Source of the DNA: Luteithermobacter gelatinilyticus
GTDB taxonomy: Bacteria > Pseudomonadota > Alphaproteobacteria > Sphingomonadales > Emcibacteraceae
Direction of reading: 5' to 3'
Assembly: GCF_005849285.1 (NCBI RefSeq)
Contig: NZ_CP040517.1
Location: forward strand, 1,308,501-1,372,500
DNA: 64,000 nt
Below are positions 8,260-51,315 of this stretch, in pieces. The first letter of the stretch is position 1; each line of letters begins with the position of its first letter. Made by a program: the position numbers and the translations under genes. Below the pieces are notes generated by a model that saw only the letters and a program-made list of their open reading frames with translations, did not search any database and was not told the origin of the DNA.

Positions 8260-8565
8260 GGTTTCATTCCGGTTTTCGGTGGCGTCCTCCATGGGTAGTG
8301 AAAACTTCACCAACCCCTTCATTTTGTTGGGGTCAATGGGCACCCCCCGGCGCAGAATACTGATGCGTCCCTGACGGGCCAGGTGTTTGGCCTGCTGTTT
8401 GACGGCCAGCATGTATTTGCGCCAAATGTCCTTGGGCGCTTCTGGTTTGGCCCGATCATGGGCAATTTTCAGGGCAATGTCACGGGCCGTCACCTGGCTG
8501 CCGTCCGCGATAGCATCCAGGATATAGCCTATGATCGGGTCCTCTTTTTTTTCTTCGTTTTCCAT
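8239..8565 (-). CDS. DUF3253 family protein (winged-helix-like)
   Basis: A small basic protein of about 108 aa. The pattern of a helix-rich N-terminus with ARDIALKIA, then WRKYMLAVKQQAKHLARQGRISILRRG and VDP-like PIDPNK, matches DUF3253, a predicted winged-helix DNA-binding fold of unknown role. I choose the ATG at 8565 because GGAG lies 6 bases upstream; in-frame ATGs at 8580 and 8637 would add 5 or 24 residues but lack a good ribosome site. It converges with and overlaps the 3' end of the JAMM protease gene by 21 bases. Confidence 0.7.
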   Translation of the reverse strand: MENEEKKEDPIIGYILDAIADGSQVTARDIALKIAHDRAKPEAPKDIWRKYMLAVKQQAKHLARQGRISILRRGVPIDPNKMKGLVKFSLPMEDATENRNETSTDDHV

Positions 8566-8782
8566 TTTCGTCTCCGGCATAAGGGACTTTTCTTTCTTTT
8601 CGCCGGCTCTACCACGATTTTCATGCGCCTGCCACAAATCTTTTTCCTATATATCATCTCATAGGGATATATCGCCTCATAAGGGCAAAAATTACACGAT
8701 CGGGCACGTTGGGACTTTTCTTCCTGGGCAGGAGTCTATAAAGAGGCTGATGACATGACCGGGCATTATCTGGAAAATTTTC

Positions 8783-9409
8783 ATGACGGTACTTTATCTG
8801 TTCTGGGGAATTCTGATCGGTATCCTTGTGGCGGCGCCCATGGGGCCGGTCAATATCATCTGTATCCGGCGGGCTCTGGCCTATAATGCCTGGAACGGAT
8901 TTCTGGTCGGTATGGGGGCGGCGCTGGCGGATACGCTGTTTGGGGCGGTGGCGGCATTCGGTTTGTCGACCCTTACCCGGCTAATCCTGGAATTTAATGG
9001 CTGGTTTGAAGTCTGTGGCGGCATTGTTCTTCTGATCGTGGGGGTCAATATCTGGCGCAAACACCCCCATCTGAGTGATGTTCAGGATCAGAACGGTGAC
9101 TGGGTTAAGGCGTCAATTGGGACTTTTGCGCTGACGATTACCAATCCTATGACCATTCTGGGGTTTGTGGCCCTGTTTGCCGGATTGGGGCTGGGGAGAC
9201 TGGGGGAGTCCCTGCCCAATGCTCTTCTGGTGATCGCCGGGGTTTTTCTGGGCTCCAGCCTGTGGTGGTTTGCCCTGACCGAAGGGGTGGCTCATATGAA
9301 AAAGAAACTCTCCGATGATCATCTGTTGTGGATCAACCGGCTTTCCAGTGTGGTGGTGATCGGATTTGGCCTTTGGGCGCTCGGTAAAAATCTGTATCTG
9401 CTGATTTGA
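8783..9409 (+). CDS. LysE/RhtB family exporter
   Basis: A 208-aa membrane protein with about six hydrophobic segments. The N-terminal APMGPVNIICIRRAL is the LysE-family signature, followed by the WNGFLVGMGAALADTLFG helix pair. The conserved TNPMTILGF of the central helix is present. Members export amino acids or related small molecules from the cytoplasm; the substrate cannot be read from sequence. The gene is convergent with cysQ, and the 38-bp palindromic element at 9412-9449 lies in the 51-bp gap. Confidence 0.88.
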   Translation: MTVLYLFWGILIGILVAAPMGPVNIICIRRALAYNAWNGFLVGMGAALADTLFGAVAAFGLSTLTRLILEFNGWFEVCGGIVLLIVGVNIWRKHPHLSDVQDQNGDWVKASIGTFALTITNPMTILGFVALFAGLGLGRLGESLPNALLVIAGVFLGSSLWWFALTEGVAHMKKKLSDDHLLWINRLSSVVVIGFGLWALGKNLYLLI

Positions 9410-9411
9410 CC

Positions 9412-9449
9412 TAGAGTGAATTATGCATAGGTTGGCTCAATTCACTCTA
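9412..9449. repeat. TAGAGTGAATT palindromic element, 38-bp form (copy 1)
   Basis: Perfect 11-bp arms TAGAGTGAATT (9412-9422) and AATTCACTCTA (9439-9449) around a 16-base centre that includes GCATAGGTTGG. It almost fills the gap between the convergent lysE-family and cysQ genes. Further copies are at 11031-11300, 17553-17590 and 20773-20810. TA at both ends suggests TA-targeted insertion. It could also fold as a bidirectional RNA hairpin. Confidence 0.85.
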
Positions 9450-9460
9450 ACCTTATCGGA

Positions 9461-10258
9461 TTATAGTTCTACCCCGCCCTTGGCGATAAAGGGGCCGTTA
9501 CGGAAATCCGGCTTACCGTACAGAAATGGTTTGCCGTCGGGGTGGGTCACCTCTCCCCCGGCGGCCCGCAGCACCGCATGGCCTGCCGCCGTATCCCATT
9601 CCATGGTGGGGCCAAAGCGGGGATAGATATCCGCTTCCCCCGCGGCCACCAGACAGAATTTCAATGAACTGCCGATAGATCGGGTGTCGCGAATACCGTG
9701 CTGTTTCAGAAAAGTGTCGGTCTCGGCATCCCGGTGGGATTTGCTGGCTACCCCCACAAGGCCGCTTTCAGGAACCTTGCGCACCTTAAGGGGGGTTTTA
9801 GATGACGTCAGGGCGTCATCCTTTACATCCCAGACCACGGCCTCCCGGGGCGATCGGGCGAGGTAGAGTTTTTTGAGTGCCGGGGCATAAACGATGCCGA
9901 AGACAGGCTGACGATTCTGGATGAGCGCGATATTCACGGTGAAATCGCCCCCCTTGCGGATAAATTCCTTGGTGCCGTCCAGCGGGTCCACCAGCCAGAA
10001 CATATCCTTCACTTCGGGGATATGGCCGGCGGCCACGCGTTCTTCGGCCACCACCGGGATCTGAGGCGTAAGGGTGGCAAGGTCCCGCAGGATCATTTCT
10101 TCCGCGGCCTCATCCGCTGCTGTGACCGGTGACGTGTCATCCTTGTAGACCACTTCAAAGTCCTGTTTATAGATGGCCATAATCCGCCGCCCGGCTTCCA
10201 GGGTACAGGGAACCAGAACATCGGCAAGGCGGGTTTCAGAAACAGGCAAGTGAGACAT
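9461..10258 (-). CDS. cysQ: 3'(2'),5'-bisphosphate nucleotidase CysQ
   Basis: A 265-aa inositol-monophosphatase-superfamily enzyme. The metal-binding motifs are clear: Glu72/73 (VVAEE), DPLDGTKEF at 91-99, and WDTAAGHA near residue 224. The TKEF ending of the second motif is typical of CysQ/PAP phosphatases. It hydrolyses 3'-phosphoadenosine 5'-phosphate to AMP and phosphate, relieving inhibition during sulfate assimilation. The gene is divergent from chpT and convergent with the lysE-family gene. No other cys genes are near. Confidence 0.92.
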   Translation of the reverse strand: MSHLPVSETRLADVLVPCTLEAGRRIMAIYKQDFEVVYKDDTSPVTAADEAAEEMILRDLATLTPQIPVVAEERVAAGHIPEVKDMFWLVDPLDGTKEFIRKGGDFTVNIALIQNRQPVFGIVYAPALKKLYLARSPREAVVWDVKDDALTSSKTPLKVRKVPESGLVGVASKSHRDAETDTFLKQHGIRDTRSIGSSLKFCLVAAGEADIYPRFGPTMEWDTAAGHAVLRAAGGEVTHPDGKPFLYGKPDFRNGPFIAKGGVEL

Positions 10259-10370
10259 AAAACTGAACTTTCTGCTTTGACTTCTGATCGTGAATATCGT
10301 TAAGTTTGGGGTGTCCGCATTATAGGGACATCATCTGTACTGTCACGAGAATTCAAGAGAAAACCGGTTC

Positions 10371-11033
10371 ATGAGCGATATTGAATTTGCTGCCCTGTTA
10401 TGTTCCCGTCTGTGTCATGATCTGATCAGCCCGGTGGGGGCCATTGCCAACGGGATTGAAATCCTGTCTGAGGAAGACGATGATATGATGCGCCAGGAAG
10501 TTATGAAGCTTCTGGAGCAGAGCGCCGGGCAGACATCTAACAGGCTTCAATTTTTCCGTCTGGCCTTCGGGGCGGCGGGGGGCTTTGGCGAGGAGGTCCC
10601 GCTGGATGAGGCGGAAAAGGCGGTTAAGGCTCTTTTTTCTACCTCCCTGGTTGACGTGGCCTGGAATGTCCGGGTGCAGATGATGAACAAGGATGCCATC
10701 AAGCTGATGCTGAATCTGATACTGCTGGCCGGAGAAGCATTGCTTCGGGGGGGGCGTCTAGAGGTCAATGTGGAGGAACACGGTGAGAGCCGGCAGATCG
10801 GCATCACTGCATCAGGCGAGAAAGTAATCTTTCAAGACAAGATTCGCGAAACTCTTTTGGGCAATGTGGCGCCGGAGGGTCTTGAGCCGAAAACCGCGCC
10901 GGCCTTTCTGGCAAAAAACGTGGCCGACAAACTGGGTACGGAAATTCAGCACACGGTGTCTCAGGAACAAAGTTTTGCTCTGCGTTTTACCCTGGCCTCA
11001 TCCGCAAAAGATTCCCTGCCCCAAGTGGGCTAG
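10371..11033 (+). CDS. chpT: Histidine phosphotransferase ChpT
   Basis: A 220-aa protein of ChpT length. The phosphoacceptor is His16 in CSRLCHDLISPVGAI, within an HK-like dimerization helix pair. The remainder is a degenerate kinase-like C-terminal domain with no recognisable N or G boxes. ChpT passes phosphate from the hybrid kinase CckA to CtrA and CpdR, controlling cell-cycle entry and, in many alphaproteobacteria, motility. ctrA lies 6.7 kb downstream behind the chemotaxis genes. The stop codon TAG (11031-11033) is the first triplet of the 270-bp repeat element, so the present end of the protein was probably set by that insertion. Confidence 0.92.
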   Translation: MSDIEFAALLCSRLCHDLISPVGAIANGIEILSEEDDDMMRQEVMKLLEQSAGQTSNRLQFFRLAFGAAGGFGEEVPLDEAEKAVKALFSTSLVDVAWNVRVQMMNKDAIKLMLNLILLAGEALLRGGRLEVNVEEHGESRQIGITASGEKVIFQDKIRETLLGNVAPEGLEPKTAPAFLAKNVADKLGTEIQHTVSQEQSFALRFTLASSAKDSLPQVG

Positions 11034-11300
11034 AGTGAAGTGTGCATAGGTTGGCTCAATTCTGTTGGCGGATTGCGGCCCGCCTCACGCGGAAGACGGT
11101 GCCGGGCGATGCGGGACATCGGGCCAGGCGTCTGACAAAGTGAGCGGCCCCAAGCCGCCAACCCGAAGGGCCGGGCCGGTCTGGCCCAGTTCCTGCGGGA
11201 TTTGGCTTGGCCGTACCGCCAGTATGACCTGCACCAAATCCCTGGCTCCTGAACCAGACCTGACCGGCAGAATGGGTCAACCTATGCACAATTCACTCTA
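11031..11300. mobile_element. 270-bp miniature inverted-repeat element (TAGAGTGAA family)
   Basis: Terminal inverted repeats of about 33 bp. The left end begins TAGAGTGAAGTGTGCATAGG; the complement of the right end begins TAGAGTGAATTGTGCATAGG; both reach a CAATTCTG/CCATTCTG inner boundary. The GC-rich interior has no plausible transposase, only short overlapping frames. Outer TA dinucleotides fit a TA target duplication of the IS630/Tc1-mariner type. It separates chpT from cheA and supplies the chpT stop codon. Confidence 0.75.
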
Positions 11301-11309
11301 GAGTCACGC

Positions 11310-11327
11310 TCTTCACAATTCATTCCA
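11310..11327 (+). repeat. Decayed half copy of the TAGAGTGAA element
   Basis: CTTCACAATTCATTCCA, 10 bases past the 270-bp element, resembles the right half-end CTTCACAATTCACTCTA seen at 44442-44464. It could be a decayed solo end. Confidence 0.3.
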
Positions 11328-11562
11328 ATACGGGTCACTGCAACAGTGATTATTCCAATAGTGGCCGGTCTTCTGTGTGATGCCCATTTGGCCTAGCAGA
11401 AATGCGTATATGCAGCCTTGAGAGAGCCCGGGGGTCCTGCAGACGCGGATGGCTCTTCAAAAGCGTATTTTAAAACGGATTACTTTACAGCTTTTTAACC
11501 AATTTCTCCCATCTTAAGGGAAACTAAAAAAGTTCCCTGTCCAAGGAAGAAGGTTAAGAGCT

Positions 11563-14500
11563 ATGGATGATCTGTTAAACGAGTTTCTGACGGAGACGGC
11601 AGAAAGTCTTGATGTTGTCGATGTGGAACTGGTTACCCTCGAACAAGATCCCAATAACAAGGCTGTTCTGGATAATATTTTCCGGCTCGTCCACACCATT
11701 AAAGGAACGTGCGGTTTCTTGGGATTGCCCCGTCTTGAGGCCGTAGCTCATGCCGCCGAAAATGTTCTGGGTAAATTCCGTGATGGTGAAATCAGTGTTA
11801 CCCCTGAGGCGGTGACCCTTATTCTGGAATCCCTTGACCGGATCAAGGAAATCCTGGCCGGACTTGAGGCCACTGAGGAGGAACCCTCCGGCGATGACAG
11901 CGAAATTATTGCCCAGCTGAACGCCATGGCATCCGGGGAGGCGGGCACCGCAACGGGGACTGAAAAATCTGATGCCGGTTCCGTTTCCGCCGAAGATGAT
12001 GCTGTTCTTCCGGAACCTGTTTCCACTGTGGGATCGGTGCCGGGGGAAGTCTCTCTGGAAGAACTCGAAGCCGCTTTCCAGGCGGCTCCGGGGCCTGATG
12101 ATCTGGTGGACGGGGAAGAAGAAGGGCATTCTGCCCCTGTGCGTGAGGGATCGCTGTTTGATCAGATCGGCAGCAGCGAGACAATCAGCGTGATCTCTCA
12201 CCTCCTGCATAACAGAATCCTGGGGGATGCGGCCCTTAAACCCTTGCTTCAGGGAGCCGACCTTCAGGCCAGCAAAAAGGCAGTAGCGGCCTTTCTTGAA
12301 GAAACTTTCAAAACCGGTGCGGTAGGCGGGGACCCAAAGACCGCCTTTGCCCCGATGATTGCCAAGGGGATCACGTCGGGGCAATTTGCCCAGATCGTTG
12401 AGCACCTTAAAACGGTGCTGAACGAGGTGGACGTGGCCTCCGATTGTATTGATGAGGCCGTCACCCTCGTTCAGCAGGCCGAGTCAAAGGTGACATCCGC
12501 GGCCACTCAGAAGTCTCCGGCATCTGCCAGAAAAAACGAAGCGGAAAATACGTCGACTGCGTCCGCTCCCTCCAATGGGGAAAGCAGCGTCGCCAATCAG
12601 AGTATCCGGGTGAATGTGCAGTTACTTGAGGATCTGATGAATATGGTCAGTGAACTGGTGCTGACCCGTAACCAGTTGATGCAGATCCTGCGCCGGTCCG
12701 GAGAGAGTGAGTTTTCCGTGCCCCTGCAACGGCTGAGCCAATGCACGACGGAGTTGCAGGAAGGGGTCATGAAAACCCGCATGCAGCCGATTGGCAATGC
12801 CTGGGCCAAACTGCCACGGATTGTCCGCGATCTTCAGGTGGACCTGGGCAAAAAGATTGACCTTCAGATGTTGGGCGCGGATACGGAACTAGATCGTCAG
12901 GTGCTGGAACTGATCAAGGATCCGCTCACCCATATGGTGCGCAATTCCGCAGACCATGGCATTGAAACGCCGGATGTCCGCAGGGCCGCCGGGAAAAAGG
13001 AAACGGGAACCATCCGTCTGAACGCTTTCCATGAAGGCGGACACATTATTATCGAAATTACTGATGACGGGGCGGGCCTGAGTGTTGAAAAGCTGAAAGC
13101 CAAGGCGCTGAAAAACGACCTGGCGACGGAAGCCGAACTGGCCGAAATGTCGGACCAGCAGATTCAGAAATTTATTTTCCATCCAGGGTTTTCCACGGCG
13201 GAGAAAGTCACCAGCGTGTCCGGCCGTGGGGTGGGCATGGATGTGGTGCGCAGTAATATTGAAAAAATCGGTGGCACCATTGATCTGAAATCCATTGAAG
13301 GCAAAGGCACCAGTTTCAGCATCAAAATTCCTCTGACGCTGGCCATTGTTTCCGCTCTGATTGTCAAATGTCGGGAAGAACGTTTCGCCATTCCCCAGAT
13401 CAGCGTTCTGGAGCTTGTACGCACTTCGGAAGATGCGGATCACCGTATTGAATATATCAACCGGACCCCGGTTCTGCGGCTGCGGGATCGTTTGCTGCCG
13501 CTGATCTGTCTGGAAAAGGTTCTGGGTTTTGAAAGCGAGGATGGTGAAGACATCACTTCCCGCGAAGCCTTTATTGTGATTACCCAGGTCGGGGCCTTTA
13601 CCTTTGGGATCGTGGTGGACCAAGTTTACGATACCGAGGAAATCGTGGTCAAACCTGTGGCCCCGATCTTGCGGGATATAAGTGTTTATTCCGGCAATAC
13701 CATTTTGGGCGACGGCAGCGTGATTATGATTTTGGATCCCAATGGCATTGCGGCCCAGACGGGTGATGTTCTGTCGGATATTTCCGATGCGGAGGCGGAG
13801 CGCGAGACCGCGCATTATGAAGCTTCTCTGATTAATGATCGTGAAGCCATTCTGCTGTTCCGCGCCGGCGACCGGGCCCAGCGGGCCGTGCCGCTGTCGT
13901 TGGTGGCCCGTCTTGAAGAAGTGGATGTTGACAAGATCGAAACTTCGGATGGCAAGCCCGTTGTCCAGTATCGCGGGAAGCTGATGCCGCTGGTCAAGAT
14001 TTCTGAGGATTTCGCCATGAAGGAAAGCGGCCGGCAGCCGGTGCTGGTGTTCACGGATGGAGACCAAACCATGGGTCTGGTTGTTGACGAAATCATCGAC
14101 ATTCTGGAAGACCGTATGGAGGTGGAACTGGCGTCCAAAATTGAAGGTCAGATCGGGACAGCGGTGATTAACGGCAAGGCGACGGAAGTCATTGATGTGG
14201 CCTATTATATCGAGAAAGCCTTTGGCAAGTTCGGGCCTTCAGGACGCGCTGATGCTGCCCATCAATCGCATAAGCGCTCGCAAGTGCTGATCGTTGACGA
14301 CAGTCCTTTTTTCCTCAACATGATCCGACCGTTGTTGTCAGCGGCCGGCTATGAGGTGACAGCTGTGGACACGGCCAAAGAGGCGCTTGTGCTAAGAGAA
14401 AAAGGCCGGGATTTCGATGTGATTATCAGTGACATTGAGATGCCGGAGATTGACGGGTTCAGTTTTGCAGAGCAGGTGCGCGAAAGCGGGCGCTGGCAGG

Positions 14501-14655
14501 ATGTGCCGCTGGTGGCCTTGTCGTCCCATGCCACAGCACAGGATTTCGCCCGGGGCCGTGAGGTCGGGTTTAATGATTATGTGACCAAACTTGATCGGGA
14601 AATGCTGCTGGAGACGATCACCCATCAGATCAACAACAAAGCCAGTGTGGCCTAA
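11563..14655 (+). CDS. cheA: Hybrid chemotaxis histidine kinase CheA with an internal truncated-globin-like domain
   Basis: A 1030-aa multidomain kinase. Order: HPt (1-110, phospho-His44 in RLVHTIKGTCG); an acidic linker; a truncated-globin-like domain (about 196-310); a linker; the P3 dimerization helices (about 345-410); the HATPase with N box DPLTHMVRNSADHGIE and G box SGRGVGMDVV; two CheW-like modules (about 590-735 and 760-890); and a C-terminal receiver (about 905-1025, phospho-Asp in IISDIEMPEIDG). It autophosphorylates in response to chemoreceptors and passes phosphate to CheY and CheB. The globin-like part starts SLFDQIGSSETIS and aligns along its length with group-1 truncated haemoglobins, but Met265 sits where the haem-ligating His should be and no B10 Tyr is seen. 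It heads the cheA-W-Y-B-R cluster. Confidence 0.93.
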   Translation: MDDLLNEFLTETAESLDVVDVELVTLEQDPNNKAVLDNIFRLVHTIKGTCGFLGLPRLEAVAHAAENVLGKFRDGEISVTPEAVTLILESLDRIKEILAGLEATEEEPSGDDSEIIAQLNAMASGEAGTATGTEKSDAGSVSAEDDAVLPEPVSTVGSVPGEVSLEELEAAFQAAPGPDDLVDGEEEGHSAPVREGSLFDQIGSSETISVISHLLHNRILGDAALKPLLQGADLQASKKAVAAFLEETFKTGAVGGDPKTAFAPMIAKGITSGQFAQIVEHLKTVLNEVDVASDCIDEAVTLVQQAESKVTSAATQKSPASARKNEAENTSTASAPSNGESSVANQSIRVNVQLLEDLMNMVSELVLTRNQLMQILRRSGESEFSVPLQRLSQCTTELQEGVMKTRMQPIGNAWAKLPRIVRDLQVDLGKKIDLQMLGADTELDRQVLELIKDPLTHMVRNSADHGIETPDVRRAAGKKETGTIRLNAFHEGGHIIIEITDDGAGLSVEKLKAKALKNDLATEAELAEMSDQQIQKFIFHPGFSTAEKVTSVSGRGVGMDVVRSNIEKIGGTIDLKSIEGKGTSFSIKIPLTLAIVSALIVKCREERFAIPQISVLELVRTSEDADHRIEYINRTPVLRLRDRLLPLICLEKVLGFESEDGEDITSREAFIVITQVGAFTFGIVVDQVYDTEEIVVKPVAPILRDISVYSGNTILGDGSVIMILDPNGIAAQTGDVLSDISDAEAERETAHYEASLINDREAILLFRAGDRAQRAVPLSLVARLEEVDVDKIETSDGKPVVQYRGKLMPLVKISEDFAMKESGRQPVLVFTDGDQTMGLVVDEIIDILEDRMEVELASKIEGQIGTAVINGKATEVIDVAYYIEKAFGKFGPSGRADAAHQSHKRSQVLIVDDSPFFLNMIRPLLSAAGYEVTAVDTAKEALVLREKGRDFDVIISDIEMPEIDGFSFAEQVRESGRWQDVPLVALSSHATAQDFARGREVGFNDYVTKLDREMLLETITHQINNKASVA

Positions 14656-14679
14656 ACTGTGGCCTAAGAGGATATAGTC

Positions 14680-15138
14680 ATGGTAGACATTACAAACAAT
14701 AACGATTTTGTAACCATTCGCCTTGCCGGCCAGCTTTGCGGTATTCCCGTACTCAGTGTGCATGATGTGCTCTCAGAACAGAAAATCACCAAAATTCCTT
14801 TGGCGCCGTCTTCTGTGGCAGGAGTGCTCAACCTGCGCGGGCGTATTGTAACAGCCATTGACCTGCGGAAACGGTTGGGATTGCCGGACCGGGAAGCCGG
14901 GGCAGGGAGCATGAGTGTCGTTGTGGAGTATAAAGGAGAGCCTTACAGTCTTCTTATTGACAGTGTGGGGGATGTTCTGTCTTTACCGGCGGATTCCTTT
15001 GAGCGGAATCCTGTGACGCTCGATCCCTGCTGGCAAGAGGTTTCCGGCGGAATATTTCGCTTGGAGGGTGAGCTTCTCGTTATCCTGGATGTGCATAAGT
15101 TACTGAATTTCGGGGCTGATCAAACAGTTGCCGCATAA
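14680..15138 (+). CDS. cheW: Chemotaxis adaptor CheW
   Basis: A 152-aa single CheW/SH3-like domain protein. FVTIRLAGQLCGIPVLSVHDVL opens the first beta-barrel, VAGVLNLRGRIVTAIDLRKRLG is the conserved central motif, and SLLIDSVGDVLSLP is the second half. CheW couples chemoreceptors to CheA in the membrane-associated array. It lies 24 bases after cheA with its own Shine-Dalgarno-like AGAGGA, within the che operon. Confidence 0.95.
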   Translation: MVDITNNNDFVTIRLAGQLCGIPVLSVHDVLSEQKITKIPLAPSSVAGVLNLRGRIVTAIDLRKRLGLPDREAGAGSMSVVVEYKGEPYSLLIDSVGDVLSLPADSFERNPVTLDPCWQEVSGGIFRLEGELLVILDVHKLLNFGADQTVAA

Positions 15139-15184
15139 CGGCGGCCGGATAACGAGCGGCAGATAAAAAATCGGAGAGAAAGAA

Positions 15185-15550
15185 ATGAAATCCTGTCTTG
15201 TTGTGGATGATTCAAAAGTCATTAGGAAAGTGGCCAGAAGGATCCTGGAGGAGTTGAACTTCGAGGTCATCGAAGCGGTGGACGGCGAGGATGCGCTTGC
15301 GGCTTGTAAAAAGGCGATGCCTGATGTTGTGCTTCTGGACTGGAATATGCCGGTGATGAATGGCTTGGATTTTCTAAAAACACTGCGCAATACAGCGGGA
15401 GGCGATAAACCGGTGGTGGTTTTCTGCACCACGGAAAATGATATGAGCCATATCAGCGCCGCCATTTCTGCCGGGGCTGATGAATATATTATGAAACCTT
15501 TTGATCGTGAGATTATTGAGTCTAAGTTTTCTCAGGTAGGACTGCTGTAA
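15185..15550 (+). CDS. cheY: Chemotaxis response regulator CheY
   Basis: A 121-aa stand-alone receiver domain. The acidic pair VVDDS (residues 7-9), phospho-acceptor Asp52 (LLDWNMP), the CTTE switch Thr and the KPFD Lys are all in place. Phosphorylated by CheA, it should bind the flagellar switch (FliM/FliN). The gene sits between cheW and cheB; GGAGAGAAAGA precedes the ATG. The cheB start follows its stop by one base, pointing to translational coupling. Confidence 0.94.
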   Translation: MKSCLVVDDSKVIRKVARRILEELNFEVIEAVDGEDALAACKKAMPDVVLLDWNMPVMNGLDFLKTLRNTAGGDKPVVVFCTTENDMSHISAAISAGADEYIMKPFDREIIESKFSQVGLL

Positions 15551-15551
15551 A

Positions 15552-16709
15552 GTGATTTCGTCCGTTTCCGACAAGATTGAATACCCTACACACCCTCGTA
15601 GAACGGGGCCATACCGTGTCATGATCGTGGATGATTCCGCCGTTGTGCGGGGGTTATTTGCCCGATGGCTGGAAGCTACACCACATATCAAAGTCGTCAA
15701 CACTTCCAGCAATGGCGAAATGGCGCTGAGAAACCTGAAAAACAGCGATCCGGAAATTGTCATTCTGGATATTGAAATGCCGGTTTTGGATGGTCTGACG
15801 GCATTGCCCAAAATTTTGGCCTCGCAGCCCGGGGTTCAGGTGCTAATGGCGTCAACCCTGACCAAGCGCAACGCGGAAATCAGTCTCAGGGCCCTGTCAA
15901 TGGGGGCCGCTGATTATGTCTCCAAGCCGGAAAGCAGTCGGGAAGTCACGACATCCCTGTCTTTTAAGGAAGAACTGATCAGCAAGGTTGTGAGCCTGGC
16001 GGCTGCCAAAAGGCAGCAGACAGGAGGAGAGGTTTTTCAACCTGATCAAAGGTCATCTTCTGCTGTTAAAGGGATAGTCAGGGCGGCTTTTCGTCAGCAA
16101 GGAGCGCTACGTCCCATCTCTTCCACACGCCCGAGGATTATAGGAGTGGGAAGCTCTACGGGCGGACCGCAGGCACTTTTGAAATTTTTGAATTCCATCA
16201 AGGAAAATTTACGCCTGCCTGTCCTGATTACCCAGCATATGCCGGCAAGTTTTACGGCCATTTTGAGCGATCATCTGGCGCGGGCGACGGGACTGCCCTG
16301 CAAACAGGCTCGCAATGGGGATGTTTTGCAGACCGGGCATGTTTATGTGGCGCCCGGGGAATATCATATGACGGTCGTTAAAGAGGACGGTGTGAAAAAA
16401 ATTCGTTTGATCCAAACCCCACCGGAAAATTTCTGTCGCCCGTCGGTGGACCCGATGTTCCGCAGTTTGGCGGAGGTGTTCGGGCCGGCTGTGCTGGGCG
16501 TTATTCTAACCGGGATGGGGCAGGATGGTCTGAAAGGCAGCGAATCCATCGTGGCCGCGGGGGGAACCATTATTGCTCAGGATCAGCAGACCAGTATAGT
16601 CTGGGGAATGCCGGGCGCGGTGAGTGAAGCCGGGTTGTGCAGCGCCTTGTTGCCGCTGGATGAAATTGGACCCCAAGTAGTAGCGATTGCCAATGGAGAG
16701 GCGGCATGA
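15552..16709 (+). CDS. cheB: Chemotaxis protein-glutamate methylesterase CheB
   Basis: A 385-aa protein: receiver domain (about 20-140, VMIVDDSAVVRG and phospho-Asp in ILDIEMPVLDG), a linker, and the C-terminal methylesterase (about 190-380) with catalytic Ser in GVGSSTGGPQA, His in TQHMP and Asp in GMGQDGL. It demethylates and deamidates receptors when phosphorylated by CheA. The start is a GTG one base after the cheY stop, with AGGTAGGA about 10 bases upstream. The end overlaps cheR by 4 bases (ATGA). Confidence 0.93.
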   Translation: MISSVSDKIEYPTHPRRTGPYRVMIVDDSAVVRGLFARWLEATPHIKVVNTSSNGEMALRNLKNSDPEIVILDIEMPVLDGLTALPKILASQPGVQVLMASTLTKRNAEISLRALSMGAADYVSKPESSREVTTSLSFKEELISKVVSLAAAKRQQTGGEVFQPDQRSSSAVKGIVRAAFRQQGALRPISSTRPRIIGVGSSTGGPQALLKFLNSIKENLRLPVLITQHMPASFTAILSDHLARATGLPCKQARNGDVLQTGHVYVAPGEYHMTVVKEDGVKKIRLIQTPPENFCRPSVDPMFRSLAEVFGPAVLGVILTGMGQDGLKGSESIVAAGGTIIAQDQQTSIVWGMPGAVSEAGLCSALLPLDEIGPQVVAIANGEAA

Positions 16710-17542
16710 GAACAGAAGATTTTCAGTTGATTAGCAGTATTCTCAAAGAAAGATCCGGTTTGGTTCTTACAGAGGATAAGGTCTACCTTCTGGAAAGTCG
16801 TCTCACCCCCATTGCCCGCCAGAAAGGGATGGAAACCCTTGATGATCTGATTAATGAAGTGAGGTTGCGGCGCAAGGAAGATCTGCTGAATGAAATCACG
16901 GAAGCAATGACGACCAATGAGTCCTTCTTCTTCCGCGACAATACGCCATTCGACCATCTTCGGGACAAGGTGTTGCCGGAACTTTTGGGCGCAAGGAGCA
17001 ATGTCAAACGCTTGCGTATATGGTGTGCGGCGGCCTCAACCGGGCAGGAACCCTATTCTATTGCGATTACCCTGAAGGAAATGCAGGCCAAGTTGCAGGG
17101 GTGGAACATAGAGATCGTAGGGACGGACTTGTCCCAGCAGGTTCTGGAAAAGGCCCGGGCCGGTCTTTATTCCCAGTTTGAAGTGCAACGCGGGCTCCCC
17201 ATCAAAATGCTGATTAAATATTTTACCCAGGTGGGGGAAATGTGGCAGATCAGCGAGGAACTTCGCAACATGGTCACTTATCGGCCGTTTAATCTGTTGG
17301 ATAATTTTTCCATTCTGGGACAGTTTGATGTGGTATTTTGCCGGAATGTGCTGATTTATTTTGATCAGGCCACCAAAACCCAGGTCCTTGATCGGATACG
17401 TTCCCAGATGCCCGAAGATGGCACATTATTTCTGGGAGCGGCGGAAACGGTCCTGGGGGTGAGCGATAAGTTCAAACCCGTTGCCGGTCACCGCGGAATG
17501 TATATGACTTCTGATGCGCCTGCGCTGCGCAAGGTAGGCTAG
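16706..17542 (+). CDS. cheR: Chemotaxis protein-glutamate O-methyltransferase CheR
   Basis: A 278-aa SAM-dependent methyltransferase. The N-terminal helical domain (about 1-75) carries the NESFFFRD element, and the SAM-binding domain has RIWCAAASTGQEPYSIA and the late motif FDVVFCRNVLIYFD. It methylates receptor glutamates for adaptation. It is the last gene of the che cluster and overlaps cheB by 4 bases. The 38-bp palindrome (17553-17590) lies 10 bases past the stop, before the convergent ctrA. Confidence 0.94.
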   Translation: MRTEDFQLISSILKERSGLVLTEDKVYLLESRLTPIARQKGMETLDDLINEVRLRRKEDLLNEITEAMTTNESFFFRDNTPFDHLRDKVLPELLGARSNVKRLRIWCAAASTGQEPYSIAITLKEMQAKLQGWNIEIVGTDLSQQVLEKARAGLYSQFEVQRGLPIKMLIKYFTQVGEMWQISEELRNMVTYRPFNLLDNFSILGQFDVVFCRNVLIYFDQATKTQVLDRIRSQMPEDGTLFLGAAETVLGVSDKFKPVAGHRGMYMTSDAPALRKVG

Positions 17543-17552
17543 GGTCAGGATC

Positions 17553-17590
17553 TAGAGTGAATTGAACCAACCTATTCACAATTCACTCTA
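17553..17590. repeat. TAGAGTGAATT palindromic element, 38-bp form (copy 2)
   Basis: Arms TAGAGTGAATT and AATTCACTCTA around a 16-base centre containing AACCAACCTATTCAC, the reverse orientation of the centre in copy 1. It lies between the convergent cheR and ctrA genes. Confidence 0.85.
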
Positions 17591-17631
17591 GACGAATGAG
17601 GCATGTATAAAGTATAACATGCATGAGGTAT

Positions 17632-17672
17632 AAAAAAGGACCATTCGGAAAAGGAATGGTCCTTAAGTTTTT
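17632..17672. terminator. Bidirectional intrinsic terminator between cheR and ctrA
   Basis: An 11-bp perfect stem (AAGGACCATTC / GAATGGTCCTT, 7-base loop). The minus strand is followed by TTTTTTATA (ctrA side) and the plus strand by AAGTTTTTA (cheR side). It lies 56 bases after the ctrA stop. Confidence 0.8.
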
Positions 17673-17727
17673 ATCAATTGCGTTTTATCTTTACCGGAGA
17701 TTTCGCAATTTGGTTATAGGAGGAGGG

Positions 17728-18432
17728 TCAGCCGGTTGCGGCCATTCCCTCTGAATTTTCACTAGGATCTCTCAGCACATAACCCCGACCCCAGACGGTT
17801 TCGATATAGTTTTCACCGCTGACGGCTGCCAGTTTCTTGCGCAGCTTGCAGATAAAAACATCAATGATTTTCAGTTCCGGCTCATCCATGCCGCCATAAA
17901 GGTGATTGAGGAACATTTCCTTGGTAAGCGTGGTGCCCTTACGCAGGGAAAGCAATTCGAGCATGGCGTATTCCTTGCCAGTGAGATGTACCCGTTGACC
18001 ATCGACCTCTACGGTTTTGGTGTCCAGATTCACGGCCAGCTTGTCGGTACGGATAATGGATTCCGCATGTCCCTTGGAACGGCGGATAATGGCCTGAATC
18101 CGGGCCACCAGTTCTTCTTTATAAAACGGCTTGGTCAGGTAGTCATCGGCACCAAAGCCCAGCCCCTTAACCTTGTTTTCCAGCTCAGCCATGCCTGACA
18201 GGATCAGGATCGGGGTGTTGACCTTGGCCATGCGCAGTTTTTTCAGGACATCATAGCCGTGCATGTCCGGCAGGTTGAGATCAAGAAGAATAATGTCATA
18301 GTCATACAGTTTGCCAAGATCGATGCCTTCCTCGCCCAGATCGGTGCTGTAGACGTTAAATCCTTCTGCCGACAACATCAGTTCGATGCTTTTGGATGTG
18401 GACGGATCGTCTTCAATCAATAAAACGCGCAT
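17728..18432 (-). CDS. ctrA: Cell-cycle master response regulator CtrA
   Basis: A 234-aa OmpR-type regulator very close to the family standard. The receiver has IEDDP and phospho-Asp51 ([15 protein letters not shown]), and [22 protein letters not shown] marks the linker. The winged-helix domain includes [17 protein letters not shown] and the recognition segment [14 protein letters not shown]. CtrA activates flagellar, chemotaxis and division genes and can silence replication origins. Its phosphate comes through ChpT, encoded 6.7 kb away. It is divergent from fliI, with TTAAC-rich boxes between them that could support autoregulation. The last residues after YVLRDPSE are variable in the family. 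Confidence 0.97.
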
Positions 18433-18816
18433 TTCTCAAACCCCTATTCTGTTAACTCCACCGGTCAACATTGTTTCAAAGTTCTCTTGCATGGTTAATT
18501 TTTGGCTGTTTGGCCCTTTTCACATTAACCATTTTTAACAGTATTAGTTAACAAATGGTAACCAAACCTGTTTTTTTGTGATGATCTGTAAGGAGATTTT
18601 AAGGATGATTAATTTCCAAAAATGTGATTTGTTGTCTTAACTATTTGTAAAATATGATGATTTTATTTATTCATGTATATGAATACATGTTAAGATTTGT
18701 CCTGGTCAAGATCCGTTTTTTTATTAATAAAGGCTGTGATATTTGGGGGTTTTCTCTTATGATAAACGCAAACTGGTGATAAACCCAAACTGGGCGACGT
18801 TGATACGACAATATGA
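18433..18816. promoter_or_regulatory. ctrA-fliI divergent intergenic region with CtrA-like boxes
   Basis: A 384-base AT-rich region. TTAACCATTTTTAAC (18525-18539) and, on the other strand, GTTACCATTTGTTAA (complement of 18548-18562) form an imperfect inverted pair. Both resemble CtrA boxes (TTAA-N7-TTAA), though spaced by 6 rather than 7 bases. A further GGTTAATTTTTGG lies at 18493-18505. Autoregulation of ctrA and control of fliI are plausible. No other gene is seen here. Confidence 0.4.
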
Positions 18817-20232
18817 GTGCCGGGGTATGGGCTGCTGAGGCCATATGAGGGCATAATCGGAATGATCGCCCGAAACGACCCACAGAAAACAGGGGATCTG
18901 GTGTTTACGCTTAAAACAGAAATAGACAGGATACAGCCCTGGAAGTTTTATGGCCGGGTGGTCGGTGTTCAGGGATTGCTGGTGGAAGTGGCCGGCGCGC
19001 AGCGCTCTTTGAGCATTGGAGCGCGGGTTAATATTCTGTCCCGTCAGGACAAGGTGATCCCTGCCGAAGTGGTGGGCTTCCATGCGGACCGGGCTCTGCT
19101 GATGCCCTTTTCCATGCTTGAAGGTGTGGGCGTGGGCTGCAAGGCCTTCATTGAGGGAGAAGTGGCCGTGGTGCATCCGGGCGAAGGCTGGCTGGGGCGG
19201 GTGGTCAATGCCATGGGGGAACCCATTGATGGCAGGGGGCCGATCCGCGACGGCGCCGAATCCTATGCGGTGCGGGCCCAGCCCCCGGCGGCGCATTTGC
19301 GTCAGCGGGTCGGGGAAAAGATTGATCTTGGGGTGCGGTCCATTAATACTTTTGTGACCTGCTGCAAGGGGCAACGTATGGGGATTTTTGCCGGATCAGG
19401 TGTCGGGAAATCCGTTCTTTTGTCCATGTTTGCCCGTTATGCCAGCGCCGATGTGACGGTAATCGGTTTGATCGGGGAACGGGGGCGCGAGGTGCAGGAA
19501 TTTCTTGAGGATGATCTGGGGGAAGAGGGACTGGCGCGCAGTGTTGTGGTGGTGGCCACGTCGGACGAGACTGCCTTGATGCGTCGGCAGGCGGCGTATC
19601 TGACGCTCACGGTCAGTGAATATTTTCGGGACCGGGGCATGGATGTACTGACCCTGATGGACAGTGTGACCCGGTTCGCCATGGCGCAGCGGGAAATCGG
19701 CCTGGCCGGGGGCGAACCACCGGCCAGCAAAGGCTACACGCCTACCGTCTTTTCCGAACTACCGCGTCTTCTGGAACGTGCGGGGCCGGGGCTCAGAGGC
19801 CGGGGCGGATCCATTACCGGATTGTTTACCGTGCTGGTGGAAGGGGATGATCATAACGAGCCGGTATCCGACGCGGTGCGTGGCATTTTGGACGGCCATA
19901 TTGTTCTGGATCGGTCTATTGCGGAACGTGGCCGCTTTCCGGCGGTGAATGTGCTACGGTCTGTTTCCCGTACCATGCCGGGGTGCAACACATCAGAGGA
20001 AAATGAGCTTCTGGTTACCGCTCGTAAATATTTGGCGGACTATAATGACATGGAAGAGATGATTCGCTTGGGGGCTTATCGCTCCGGGGCCAACCGGGAG
20101 GTTGACGAGGCGATATTTTATCATCCGGCGCTGGAAGAATTTCTGGCGCAACAAAAAACGGAACGCAGCAGCCTGGTGGAAGGGTACCAAAGGCTGGCGG
20201 AAATATTGAACCGACGTCCAGGTTCGGAATAA
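18817..20232 (+). CDS. fliI: Flagellum-specific ATPase FliI
   Basis: Up to 471 aa. FliI is the hexameric ATPase of the flagellar type III export apparatus at the inner membrane. Walker A is visible as [11 protein letters not shown], with [19 protein letters not shown] after it and Walker B-like [18 protein letters not shown]. The GTG at 18817 gives the longest frame; the ATG at 18862 (MIARNDPQ...) gives 456 aa, nearer the family norm, and may be the real start. The downstream fliJ begins 39 bases later, and both are divergent from ctrA. Confidence 0.95.
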
Positions 20233-20271
20233 ATGCAGGATTAAAAAGAAAGAGGGACAATCGAGGCGCAA

Positions 20272-20700
20272 ATGGTTAAAGGTTTGGAGGGGATGATCCG
20301 GTTACACAAGTGGCAGCTGGATGAAAAAAGGCGTCAGTTAAACGATCTGGAGGCGATGCGTGACGATCTGCTGCGGCAGAAGGCGCTTCTGGCGGAGCAA
20401 TTATCATTTGAACAGCAAAAGGCGGCGGCCGCGCCGGTGGTGGATTTTGCTTATGCCAATTATGCAACCTCGGTGATGCAGCGGCAGCAAAATCTGCAAA
20501 ACTCCCTAAACGAGATTGAAGCGTCCATCGAAGACATGAAAGAGCAGGTGGCCGAAGCCTTCAAGGAAATGAAGAAATATGAAATCGTCGAGCGGCGGGA
20601 GCAGGAGCGTCGCCGGGCCCAGGCTCACCGGCGCCAGCAGGCTGACCTTGACGAACTGGCGGTGCAGATGCATCGGCGTAAAAACCGCGCAAGCGCCTGA
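20272..20700 (+). CDS. fliJ: Flagellar export protein FliJ
   Basis: A 142-aa, almost entirely alpha-helical coiled-coil protein rich in Gln, Glu and Arg, starting VKGLEGMIRLHKWQLDEKRRQ. This is the form of FliJ, the central stalk that couples FliI to FlhA and escorts export chaperones. Sequence similarity in this family is weak, so the call rests on coiled-coil character, size and position directly after fliI. It ends 72 bases before a palindromic element. Confidence 0.82.
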   Translation: MVKGLEGMIRLHKWQLDEKRRQLNDLEAMRDDLLRQKALLAEQLSFEQQKAAAAPVVDFAYANYATSVMQRQQNLQNSLNEIEASIEDMKEQVAEAFKEMKKYEIVERREQERRRAQAHRRQQADLDELAVQMHRRKNRASA

Positions 20701-20713
20701 GCGCCCCCCCAAA

Positions 20714-20747
20714 AACATCGCCAGAAACGAAACATCGCCAGAAACGA
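20714..20747. repeat. 17-bp tandem duplication after fliJ
   Basis: AACATCGCCAGAAACGA is repeated exactly (20714-20730, 20731-20747) just after the fliJ stop. It is probably a slippage product. Confidence 0.7.
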
Positions 20748-20772
20748 AATCAGATTCTGTCAGCAGGGCATT

Positions 20773-20810
20773 TAGAGTGAATTGTGAATAGGTTGTCTTA
20801 ATTCACTCTA
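20773..20810. repeat. TAGAGTGAATT palindromic element, 38-bp form (copy 3)
   Basis: Arms TAGAGTGAATT and AATTCACTCTA around TGTGAATAGGTTGTCTT-type centre sequence. It lies between the convergent fliJ and a small T-fold-like gene. Its last three bases (complement TAG) are the stop codon of the latter. Confidence 0.85.
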
Positions 20811-21188
20811 TACGGCAAGGCGTTGCAGCAGGGCTTCGTCATGCCATTGCGGCTGGCGGTCCTCCACGGCGATTTTGACCTCAAGGCCCCCATCCTCTCC
20901 CTTGCGGACGATGCTGAGCCCCACCCATTTAGGCACAATTTCATCCATAATGTCTTCCAGAACATGCAGGGCCAATCCTTCAGGTGTGGTCCATTCCGGA
21001 AGCTGGCCCAGAATCTGGCATTGTTCCAGATAGTCATCAAATGCTCCATGCTGCAGGATCAGCTTGTCCGGCACATAACGCAGGGTGAACACATAGCTGT
21101 TGTGATTGAACGTCACAATCTTGCGAAGGGAGATCACATAATCGCGTCTTTTGTCGGGATTGTTATGGGAAATCAGTAATTTTTTCAT
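20808..21188 (-). CDS. Conserved small protein, T-fold-like (function unknown)
   Basis: A 126-aa protein that I cannot assign with certainty. VFTLRYVPDKLIL...FDDYL and TPEGLALHVLEDIMDEIVPKWVGLSI, ending in VKIAVEDRQPQWHDE, recall the tunnelling-fold (QueF, 6-pyruvoyltetrahydropterin synthase, GTP cyclohydrolase) pattern of strand, long helix, strand. The catalytic Cys of QueF is not visible, so an enzyme role is uncertain. Its TAG stop is the outer triplet of the palindromic element at 20773-20810, implying the C-terminus was set by that insertion. It lies 42 bases after the 774-aa FliK-like gene on the same strand. Confidence 0.55.
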   Translation of the reverse strand: MKKLLISHNNPDKRRDYVISLRKIVTFNHNSYVFTLRYVPDKLILQHGAFDDYLEQCQILGQLPEWTTPEGLALHVLEDIMDEIVPKWVGLSIVRKGEDGGLEVKIAVEDRQPQWHDEALLQRLAV

Positions 21189-21230
21189 GGGAATCCGGTT
21201 GTTTGCTGATGGAATGCCTTAAATGGTCCC

Positions 21231-23555
21231 TTAAATCGTCAATGTATCCAGGTCCGATTGGTGAATGTGGGATTCAATAATCTTTTTTACCGAAATATCT
21301 GTGGGTCTGCCATCATGAAACAGAAGCTCTCCGGCAAAACCACTTCCTTCCAGCGCAGACGTAAACCGTGATGTCAGATCCTTTTTGACAGTGTCGGCGA
21401 GAATATTTTCGGATTTCAGAATAATATCCAGCCGCCTTTCCCTGAGCATGCCATCCAGGACCAAGTGGCCATAACGGCTCAGGTCAAGATCAAGGATGAA
21501 CCGCGTGGTATGGACAGATACCTCCCGGTTTTCGCCGGCTGTCTCATCATTGTTTTCTTCGGACTTTTCCTGTCCGCTATGGCGGATCAGCATGGGCAGG
21601 GCCGTCACCTCCTGCCCATTATAGGCGGGCAAAAGCACCGGGCGCCAGTCACCAGCCGGAGCCTCTGCGCCCAGCCTGGCGATGCGGCGCATATCATGGT
21701 CCAGTTGTCGCAGAAGCTTCTGCTGCCCAACCTTTTGCAGCTGTGCGCTGACCTCGGGCCCAAGCCAGGTCCGGGCGGGCTGTGGTGCACCAAGGGCGGC
21801 CATAAAGAACAACAGGGTACTGCTCATCTGTTGAGGAGACTGAAGGTTGGGCAGGCGACTGCCCATCAGGGTATAAGGGGCCGTATTTTGTTGTGCCGCC
21901 AGAATCGCCATGATGTCATTTAGGGCCTGCCAGTTTTGAAACAGGCTGTCCAAGGGTTGCGCCGGTAATGCCGCTGCCGTTTGTGAGGGGGGGAGGGGGG
22001 CTCCTTCTACAGCGGCTGGATCCGAAGATGGGACGTCGGCAGGTAGGGAGGATGGCGGTGTGGCGCTGACGGAGACAGCTGTAGCCGCAGTTCCAGCGGG
22101 CTTTTCCAGAGAGGATGCGGAACTTTCGGGGGCCTGTCGGGGCAGGGGGGTAAAACTGACAATGGTGCCCGGCGGCAATTCTGCACTGCTTTCGAATTTG
22201 ATAATGGATACCGGGGTTGCCAGATAATGAGTCTTGGGACTCGAAGCAGCTGCGCCGGTTGGCATGCGGGTAGCTCTCCCCCCATAACTATGGGCGGCAG
22301 GGGGCGGGGGGGATCGCCGGAAGGAATCCTCCGGCGCCAGAACAATCCCGGAAATCACCGGGGCCGTCGATGTTTCAGGGGACGGGGCAGAGACTGGGGT
22401 GGAAGGGGAAGCCGGCGCAGCGGGTTGGGCGGCGGCCGTTTGTTCGGTGGTCTCAGGCTCCGAAGAAGAAAAAGAAGGTCTCTGCTGGGAAGCGTCCCGG
22501 GGATCAATATTTTCGGCCGGCTGGACATGGGGGATGGCCACCGCGTGCACCCTGAAACTGAAATGGCTTCCCTGAGGCAGACGGTCCAGTATGCTGTCCA
22601 GCCCGATTTCCCGGGCCACGAAGCTGGGCAGGGAGGAGGCCGGATTGGGATAGGTTTTGACAACCGTGGCCAACAGCTCCCGGTTCAGAAGCGTTTCAAG
22701 TTCGGCCTGAACAGCGGCAGGCGGTGGTGATGCGACGGGGGGTGGGGTTTGTTCCTGGGCCAATAAGGGGGTGGCGGTGATTTTCGGGCTTAGGGGTGGC
22801 GTAATGGATTTGGTGGCTGTTTCCGGCGCAACGGGGGCTGTTTTGCCATGATCCGGCGGTGGGGAAGCCGGGACGGGTTTTTCAAAAAAAGTATAAGCGG
22901 TACCAGAGGTGGGTAGCGGAAAATTTTCCATATTGCCGCTCATATTGCGGGCGATTTGTTCGGCCCGGTAAAGGGTGCTGGCCTGATATTGGTACCCGGC
23001 TGGCGGGGAAAAAGCGTCTTCCTGTGCCGGGTGTTGGGGGGTGGTGAACCCGGCTTTGACTTTGATCAGGGTCAGGCTGACCTGAACCGGTTGAAACAGC
23101 GAAGTGTCCGAACTGCCTGGTGTGTCCCCGGGTTTCTCGTTTCTAACCGGGATGAGGGTGGCCCGTATTTCCTTGTCCACCTGGTCAATTTTTACCATCA
23201 CCGCCGTCCCCGGCGATAACTTTGCAAGGGCCTTTTCGATTTCCGGTTTGCTTTGCACCAGATAAACAGCGCTGTCGGTTGCCAGGGTCTGACGGCCTTC
23301 CACATCAAGGCCATCGGTTCGGGCGGTAAAGTTGCTGCCGGCTCGTAGATGCAGGAGGGAAGCGGACAAGGTGACCGCGGGATCGTGATGGGGGATGGGT
23401 TTGTCGGCTTCCCCGGCATTATCCGCACGGGGGGCGGAATGCCCTGTGGCCTCCTGTCGCGGTCTCTGGTCCGAGGTGGTGGACGCAGGGGTCACGCGGT
23501 TGGGGCTTTCCTGGGGACTGAAGTCCGGTTTTTGCGGGCCGCCGATTTCGCTCAT
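21231..23555 (-). CDS. FliK-like protein with C-terminal Flg_hook-type domain
   Basis: A 774-aa, Pro/Ala/Ser-rich, low-complexity protein. Only the C-terminal part (about 640-774) looks folded: RFILDLDLSRYGHLVLDGM...LDIILKSENILADTVKKDL...ALEGSGFAGELLF. This matches the pattern of the hook-length-control C-terminal domain (Flg_hook, as in FliK). Residues about 55-140 have a beta-rich pattern. A second, more typical FliK is at 37022-38911, so this one may be a distinct type III-exported ruler or a paralogue. It follows flhG by about 107 bases on the same strand and may be the last flagellar gene of that run. Confidence 0.6.
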   Translation of the reverse strand: MSEIGGPQKPDFSPQESPNRVTPASTTSDQRPRQEATGHSAPRADNAGEADKPIPHHDPAVTLSASLLHLRAGSNFTARTDGLDVEGRQTLATDSAVYLVQSKPEIEKALAKLSPGTAVMVKIDQVDKEIRATLIPVRNEKPGDTPGSSDTSLFQPVQVSLTLIKVKAGFTTPQHPAQEDAFSPPAGYQYQASTLYRAEQIARNMSGNMENFPLPTSGTAYTFFEKPVPASPPPDHGKTAPVAPETATKSITPPLSPKITATPLLAQEQTPPPVASPPPAAVQAELETLLNRELLATVVKTYPNPASSLPSFVAREIGLDSILDRLPQGSHFSFRVHAVAIPHVQPAENIDPRDASQQRPSFSSSEPETTEQTAAAQPAAPASPSTPVSAPSPETSTAPVISGIVLAPEDSFRRSPPPPAAHSYGGRATRMPTGAAASSPKTHYLATPVSIIKFESSAELPPGTIVSFTPLPRQAPESSASSLEKPAGTAATAVSVSATPPSSLPADVPSSDPAAVEGAPLPPSQTAAALPAQPLDSLFQNWQALNDIMAILAAQQNTAPYTLMGSRLPNLQSPQQMSSTLLFFMAALGAPQPARTWLGPEVSAQLQKVGQQKLLRQLDHDMRRIARLGAEAPAGDWRPVLLPAYNGQEVTALPMLIRHSGQEKSEENNDETAGENREVSVHTTRFILDLDLSRYGHLVLDGMLRERRLDIILKSENILADTVKKDLTSRFTSALEGSGFAGELLFHDGRPTDISVKKIIESHIHQSDLDTLTI

Positions 23556-42725: not shown

Positions 42726-42751
42726 AGATCGCCTCATCACAACTCACTCTG
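42723..42751. repeat. Possible decayed TAGAGTGAATT-family element
   Basis: TAGAG at the flgL stop and CACAACTCACTCTG at 42738-42751 match the outer parts of the intact palindromes (consensus right end CACAATTCACTCTA). About 29 bp remain. Confidence 0.4.
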
Positions 42752-42842
42752 GGACAGGAGAACCTTCCTCAAGGGCGCAGAAAAGGGCAGAATATTGTTG
42801 CAAGGCCTTGAAGTTTGCCCCGGGATGCGGTATCTGCGCATT

Positions 42843-44324: not shown

Positions 44325-44441
44325 ACTTCCAAATATTCAATAAAAACAATAAGTTAGATGTATCGTAACGCGAAGTGCGTCGCATATTTGTGTTACATAT
44401 TTGCGCGACCGTGTGATTGATGCGGTTCTTATTGAAGGGGT

Positions 44442-51308: not shown

Positions 51309-51315
51309 TCAGGGG

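Follow-up and report, generated by a model that had tools for sequence, protein, structure and literature searches.

The 64,000-bp stretch of the Luteithermobacter gelatinilyticus genome analyzed here (the window; bases 1308501-1372500 of a single 3,145,891-bp contig) contains three copies of a 38-bp palindrome bounded by TA. They are located exactly where the original prediction had placed them. The first (9412-9449, + strand) lies between a lysE-like gene (8783-9409, +) and an inositol-phosphatase-like gene (9461-10258, -), the second (17553-17590, -) between cheR (16706-17542, +) and a response-regulator gene (17728-18432, -), and the third (20773-20810, +) between fliJ (20272-20700, +) and an open reading frame (ORF) at 20808-21188 (-). 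As had been claimed, the 11-bp arms are identical in all three, the centers are related and occur in either orientation, and each copy is flanked by convergent genes. The third copy also supplies the TAG stop codon (20808-20810, -) of ORF 20808-21188, and rejoining its flanks gives TAA. An Rfam search of window positions 8500-21500 returned no match up to E=1.

The same region contains a complete element of about 270 bp (11031-11300, +) with ends as in the palindromes, TAGAGTG on the left and CACTCTA on the right. It starts with TAGAGTGAAGTGTGCATAGGTTGGCTCAATTCTG and ends with CAGAATGGGTCAACCTATGCACAATTCACTCTA, the right end being AATTCACTCTA at 11290, and it supplies the TAG stop (11031-11033, +) of the chpT-like gene at 10371-11033. 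As judged from the sequences, the palindromes are internal-deletion forms of this miniature inverted-repeat transposable element (MITE) with identical ends. Based on the current evidence, they are probably the short members of a MITE family belonging to an insertion sequence (IS) of the IS630 type that resides in the same genome.

A search of the genome with DDE_3 identified two proteins, each inside a TA-flanked element of 1,058 bp. The transposase is encoded in two frames that overlap at a run of eight A. The second frame contains the DDE_3 domain (PF13358, E=9e-37), and the first gives weak helix-turn-helix matches only (HTH_23, below the curated cut-off). Counted by eye against the MITE, identity is 23 of 24 positions for the left end of the IS, TAGAGTGAATTGTGAAAAGGTTGG, and 19 of 24 for the right end. 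Thus, an IS630/Tc1-type transposase with matching ends, which the original prediction had suggested looking for, is present in two TA-flanked copies. The smaller elements have the features of MITEs, namely terminal inverted repeats that match an IS, TA duplication, small size, many copies and no transposase gene of their own.

The palindromes form a TA-bounded family, as had been observed, and its extent is larger than had been noted. A pattern of two perfect arms separated by 5-30 bases has 60 matches in the genome, and the 38-bp consensus with at most three mismatches matches 101 times (49 + 52); the reversed control of the former and the control of the latter both gave 0. The original prediction would have been refuted by few other copies genome-wide, which is not what these counts show. 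Among 60 genomes sampled from the same family and order, none of the other 59 contains the perfect-arm pattern, and neither do the other 384 of a class-wide sample of 385 that has a few genomes in common with the first. L. gelatinilyticus is the sole member of its genus among the 60 sampled relatives, and the nearest named relatives of the cheR gene in the window are from Kordiimonas species. Of the 60 perfect copies, 58 were examined in detail, as were 60 of 69 further named places. Most perfect copies are 38 bp long (50 copies), and the others are 44 bp (6 copies), 37 bp (one copy, a 38-mer minus one base) and 28 bp (one copy). The perfect 38-mers are oriented 25:25 across the chromosome. 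According to gene calls made with our own codon-usage script, 28 perfect copies lie between convergent genes, 23 between tandem genes and 5 between divergent genes, with 2 unclassed. The earlier view that the palindromes sit at gene ends therefore holds as a tendency and fails as a rule.

The longer element is also repeated. A sequence model of the 38-mers matched many additional places over model positions 1-32 only, among the best 150 of 1661 candidates. The interior of the 270-bp element has at least 41 matches in the genome, 40 of 67 candidates having been scored. At 30 loci examined, the left end was found in 29 and both ends in 28. Of these two-ended elements, 26 are 269-296 bp long and the other two are 177 and 205 bp. 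The predicted RNA fold of the 270-bp element has an energy of -144.6 kcal/mol (z = -7.3 vs shuffles). The two arms of an element tend to share variants (L179-L207): position 17 is the same in both in 21 of 28, including one rare C/C, as if one arm had been corrected to the other. Places with other interiors (L163, L165, L166; match to model positions 1-32) were considered as cassettes and rejected, since by eye they are truncated ends beside host DNA.

The half or decayed copies that had been listed in the window can be read as follows. Those reported at 44442 and 51316 are, by eye, lone right ends of the 270-bp element (44438-44464, +, and 51312-51339, +, the latter slightly decayed). The copy reported at 11310 lies beside the complete element, the right end of which is at 11290, where a degenerate second element (11299-11327, -; by eye) adjoins it with a TA common to both. 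The fourth, at 42723, is weak: by eye it is a possible strongly decayed copy (42723-42754, no strand assigned), the first TAG of which is the stop codon of ORF 41802-42725 (+). Family members adjoin each other with a common TA at five other loci as well (L172, L174, L176, L177 and L178), and the element ends, which form CTAG, seem themselves to be used as insertion sites.

In another genus of the same family, one other genome possesses a homologous 272-bp MITE (L284, G005:C16:16900-17900). Its interior is 69 % identical to that of the 270-bp element over 178 bp. The end repeats are perfect but diverged, beginning TAGAGCAATATCAG, with the TAGAG start retained. One more weak match to the 270-bp element spans 47 bp in genome G045. 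It seems that the long MITE predates the genus and that its ends have since changed, with TAGAG retained.

The flanking bases indicate a preferred target. In 58/58 perfect copies the left TA is preceded by C or T, and 53/58 occupy a YTAR site, compared with 15.1 % of the 2,099 TA sites in the window (p=6e-38). The flanks of the 270-bp elements are similar, with Y on the left in 26/29, R on the right in 27/28 and CTAG in 15/28. Among the perfect copies the combinations are CTAG (18), CTAA (17), TTAG (12) and TTAA (6), without the covariation expected of a longer stem, so that the flanks look like a site preference. TA at both ends of the 58 perfect copies was demanded by the search pattern itself. 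Nevertheless, insertion of the family at TA is well supported, with independent evidence from the YTAR flanks and from the rejoined stop codons described below. According to the title of a 1991 paper by Tenzen and Ohtsubo, an IS630 composite is likewise said to prefer CTAG.

By the same gene calls, 20 of the 58 perfect copies supply a TAG stop codon with their first three bases, to 21 genes in total, as one copy serves both of its convergent neighbors. By comparison, 26 of 411 non-coding YTAR sites in the same stretches, which are mostly those surrounding copies, are stop codons (p=1.5e-8). With the window alone as a second background the figure is 11 of 156 (p=2e-6). Among ORFs that enter an element, 48/59 stop at the first TAG, compared with an expected share of about 1/3 (p=5e-14). 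This applies to 21/23 ORFs at the 58 perfect copies, 16/23 at 60 imperfect copies and 11/13 at the 28 long elements. If genes were merely cut short, stops in the three frames would be roughly equal; instead, the first TAG prevails. The other 11 of the 59 ORFs miss the first TAG, which implies that some genes have been cut or lengthened. When the flanks of the stop-supplying copies are rejoined, a stop is restored in 21/21 cases, as TAA in 11 and TAG in 10.

The encoded proteins provide additional evidence. Families were searched for 15 of the 21 genes, leaving out two that run off the examined DNA and four others. The EttA, ThiG, DUF899, thiolase and SpoVR proteins extend to the last position of the respective family model or stop at most 11 positions short of it. 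Three of the 15 had no match, and several had partial or repeat-domain matches that are uninformative about the end. Compared with five homologues, the chpT-like protein encoded just before the 270-bp element of the window has 6-11 additional residues. L027, a Kordiimonas relative, shows the same convergent arrangement of fliJ and the homologue of ORF 20808-21188 with no palindrome between them, and this homologue continues for about two more residues before a TAA stop. Copies are also enriched between convergent genes, with 12 of 34 plainly intergenic copies at such sites compared with 10 of 363 intergenic YTAR sites. Together with the stop codons, this enrichment means that the family is strongly biased toward the 3' side of genes.

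The target itself offers a molecular reason why TA-inserting repeats are found at gene ends. On either strand YTAR includes TAA or TAG, and because the element begins with G, a TAG is left on both sides after insertion. A stop codon would thus be rebuilt in either orientation, and the protein would be unaffected. This property may be general, given the TAGAG start in relatives of the IS. End repeats were legible in five of 19 IS loci from the same order; four of them (L008, L015, L017 and L019) have TAGAG at both ends, and the fifth (L020) has TAGAG at one end and TAGAC at the other. Tolerance of such insertions would be enough to explain the 3' bias, as has been argued in the discussion of pneumococcal repeats (PMC3049150). 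What is new here is that insertions of a TA-target MITE in stop codons are documented site by site. No report of such documentation or of this repeat was found in a search that most subscription papers lay outside, and no priority is claimed. IS870 is reported to complete a stop codon from its target. In a 2024 review of prokaryotic MITEs, the term 'stop codon' is absent from the main text (PMC10969869).

Under the proposed origin, the IS transposase would move the 270-bp element in trans, by cut-and-paste into TA. Selection would then remove insertions in coding regions and promoters, and those in stop codons or between convergent genes would be harmless and so survive. Several observations weigh against assigning the family to the IS in this manner. 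One is the poorer match at the right end of the IS. Another is that the case for TA duplication rests on the YTAR flanks and the rejoined stops, given that the search pattern required TA. Furthermore, no transposition event has been observed, and among the 60 relatives there is no genome of the same genus that could offer a true empty site, the evidence on empty sites coming from the rejoined flanks, from orthologous junctions in another genus and from the junctions of the M1M2 repeat described below.

The origin of the short forms can be read from their joints. Each consensus (38, 44, 37 and 28 bp) can be assembled exactly from a prefix and a suffix of a single 270-bp copy (L184). For the 38-mer the joint is CAATTC, a microhomology of 6 bp. 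GAAT (4 bp) forms the joint of the 44-mer and of a 37-mer of a second kind, whereas the joint of the 28-mer has 0 bp of microhomology. The 38-mer occurs 101 times genome-wide, and the 44-, 37- and 28-mers 7, 3 and 1 times in the examined stretches, to which the counts of these rarer forms are confined. The three copies of the 37-bp form are those with at most one mismatch, and weaker matches are mostly right ends of long elements. With this difference in counting, abundance decreases as the common repeat becomes shorter, a trend expected from slippage between direct repeats where a hairpin has its base. The textbook example is Tn10, with its nearly precise excision. Specifically, a 270-bp element may collapse in place between direct repeats at the base of its hairpin, via CAATTC to yield 38 bp or via GAAT to yield 44 or 37 bp. 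In-place collapse, rather than independent mobility, is judged slightly the more probable source of most 38-bp copies.

A second TA-flanked repeat, M1M2, is about 185 bp long (TAGTGTGGTGAATTTGAAG...CAGAGTCAGAAGACTA). By its right end it has 15 copies (L269-L283, e.g. at C1:241544 and 243543). Its junctions lead into host DNA in 7 copies, a 38-mer in 5 (one inverted), a 44-mer in 1, a truncated 270-type element in 1 and a truncated end in 1. Thus, 8 of the 15 adjoin a member of the palindrome/270-bp family at the same TA. Family elements are in excess at the right over the left junction. The 38-mer was considered, and discarded, as a built-in end of a composite M1M2 unit, since the varied right junctions rather suggest a shared TA junction. 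In one copy (L277, C1:3047693) a palindrome is fused to the M1M2 repeat at CAC, which by eye looks like a microhomology deletion between two different elements.

The main alternative is that the 38-bp palindrome is itself mobile, having originated from a single deletion and then transposed as an ultra-small MITE with 34 bp between the TAs. This possibility has to be taken seriously, even if it is somewhat doubtful. Three observations favor mobility of the 38-mer over in-place collapse. First, the 101 short matches compare with at least 28 two-ended long copies. Second, position 17 is G in 8 of 98 38-mers and in 14 of 28 left arms of 270-bp elements (p=3e-6), so that the 38-mers do not represent a random draw from the 270-bp copies now present. 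Third, conservation at positions 3-12 is as high as in the long form (0.964 vs 0.965), which is unexpected for a dead remnant, and the center varies. The C or T that precedes the left TA in every perfect copy is also consistent with mobility. These variant and conservation tests were made with 98 good 38-mers, after 5 of a set of 103 copies had been dropped, two of them truncated or long-element ends.

Structural considerations point the other way. ISY100, a studied member of the IS630 family, requires its 24-bp repeats at both ends in the view of the authors who describe it (PMC2170065). The 38-mer has one 24-bp end in full but no more than about 10-12 bp of the second, and the folding of 34 bp into a paired-end complex would be physically doubtful. 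Several short forms exist, mostly joined at a direct repeat, which points to repeated deletion. Moreover, two M1M2 copies with a common derived base bear a 38-mer and a 44-mer, respectively, at the same junction. Positions 13-23 of the 38-mers are also more decayed than those of the long elements (pairwise identity 0.895 vs 0.976, a value reached by 0/500 random subsets). Greater decay is the criterion by which singlets of repetitive extragenic palindromic (REP) sequences have been judged to be remnants (PMC3116915).

The variants within the 38-mers do not indicate sub-lineages, since 27 pairs share at least two central variants compared with a shuffle mean of 31. Shared variants (GCGAATAGGTTGGTT in three copies, CATCGG and AGGGTGG) had been considered as proof of self-copying and were unsupported by this test. 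When positions 15, 17 and 24 were omitted, there were 4 pairs compared with a mean of 1.6, a value reached in 26/300 shuffles. Unlinked variants fit either a star of scars or a single master copy. Overall, we lean slightly toward the reading of the 38-mers as scars over that of a self-mobile 38-mer. The more specific proposal, that a 34-bp core with one full 24-bp end and a 10-12-bp stub has moved to about 100 sites and stays hidden in the stops of either strand with proteins unchanged, can be held only tentatively and is a little less probable than mobility as such. The original prediction had described an expanding non-autonomous family. The link to an IS630/Tc1-type element and the TA flanks agree with that description, and expansion fits the family as a whole, but the 38-bp form may be a deletion scar.

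An alternative of a different kind is that the palindromes are functional, acting as two-way terminators or as stabilizers of mRNA 3' ends that selection has kept at gene ends. The strong excess at stop codons and between convergent genes speaks for such a role, as do the 38-mer RNA hairpins of -13 to -16 kcal/mol and several convergent pairs that are separated by almost nothing except the element. In L027, the gap between fliJ and the ORF has a GC-rich stem and a T-run that are not visible by eye in the gap of the window. The pneumococcal SPRITE repeats have been suggested by the authors who discuss them to be co-opted terminators (PMC3049150). However, the stem of the palindromes (UAGAGUGAAUUG) is not GC-rich and is followed by no U-run, the element ending in CUCUA. 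Additionally, the neighboring genes are tandem for 23 of the 58 copies and divergent for 5, and at cheR the palindrome is accompanied by a distinct canonical terminator. The pneumococcal BOX, RUP and IS elements are also over-represented between convergent genes, where the same account reads them as tolerated parasites (PMC3049150). An overly strict terminator scan gave matches in 2/28 element-bearing and 2/15 element-free convergent pairs. Retention as terminators or stabilizers appears unlikely.

It had also been suggested that the structures are REP-like. That they are REP sequences mobilized by a REP-associated tyrosine transposase (RAYT; IS200/IS605-like) seems very improbable. The similarity is considerable, as REPs, GTAG-REPs and REPINs among them, are palindromes of 20-40 bp with many copies, mostly 3' of genes, and the ends of GTAG-REPs, in the source describing them, often supply TAG stops to the flanking ORFs (PMC3733652). 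In contrast, the base before TAG is C or T in all 58 copies here and never G, so there is no GTAG head, and the suggestion fails on this point. The palindromes instead possess TA flanks, a YTAR preference and ends that match an IS630-type IS and a 270-bp element with terminal inverted repeats. A binding site for a chromosome-organizing or regulatory protein is the least credible alternative, as the spread over the whole chromosome, with perfect 38-mers at 25 per orientation, and the highly conserved arms are outweighed by the YTAR preference, the truncated and adjoining copies, the 270-bp parent, the IS with the same ends and the absence of the perfect-arm pattern from 59 relatives.

With the palindromes taken as short forms of an IS630-type MITE family, a close parallel is RUP of Streptococcus pneumoniae, a MITE linked to IS630-Spn1. 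RUP is non-autonomous, has terminal inverted repeats like those of a resident IS630-family element and targets TA; it is also described as having more than 100 copies, stops in all frames and an excess between convergent genes (PMC2229807, PMC3049150). It differs in that RUP is described as 107 bp long, whereas here the majority form is the 38-bp deletion form and stop-codon insertion is documented site by site. IS630 and ISY100, of the Tc1/mariner/IS630 group, share the TA target duplication, and ISY100 has 24-bp repeats (PMC2170065). Unlike the mini forms here, which do not have two complete 24-bp ends, these elements are autonomous. The QMITEs of Coxiella burnetii share the preference for 3' ends, and two rows of a table in their description record overlaps that confer only the stop. 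Unlike the palindromes, they are described there with variable direct repeats, no TA rule and lengths of about 150-400 bp (PMC5896051). Very small mobile repeats are also reportedly known among the small dispersed repeats of cyanobacteria (Elhai, 2008). REP singlets have been proposed to arise by deletion between the two REPs of a REPIN, leaving a palindrome (PMC3116915). The nested 270-, 44-, 38-, 37- and 28-bp forms show a route from a full MITE to a REP-sized palindrome, the step that was proposed for those singlets.

A minor observation concerns CheA, encoded within the window at 11563-14655 (+). Its residues 197-310, approximately, form a truncated-globin-like domain between the Hpt and the dimerization domains. 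This region matches Pfam Bac_globin at E=3.5e-7 and HbN chains in the PDB down to E=7.6e-7 over most of the fragment, and by eye the proximal histidine seems to be missing. The CheA proteins of two further relatives (L028 and L033) gave no globin match up to E=0.1, and that of the Kordiimonas relative L027 gave a weaker one at E=4e-5.

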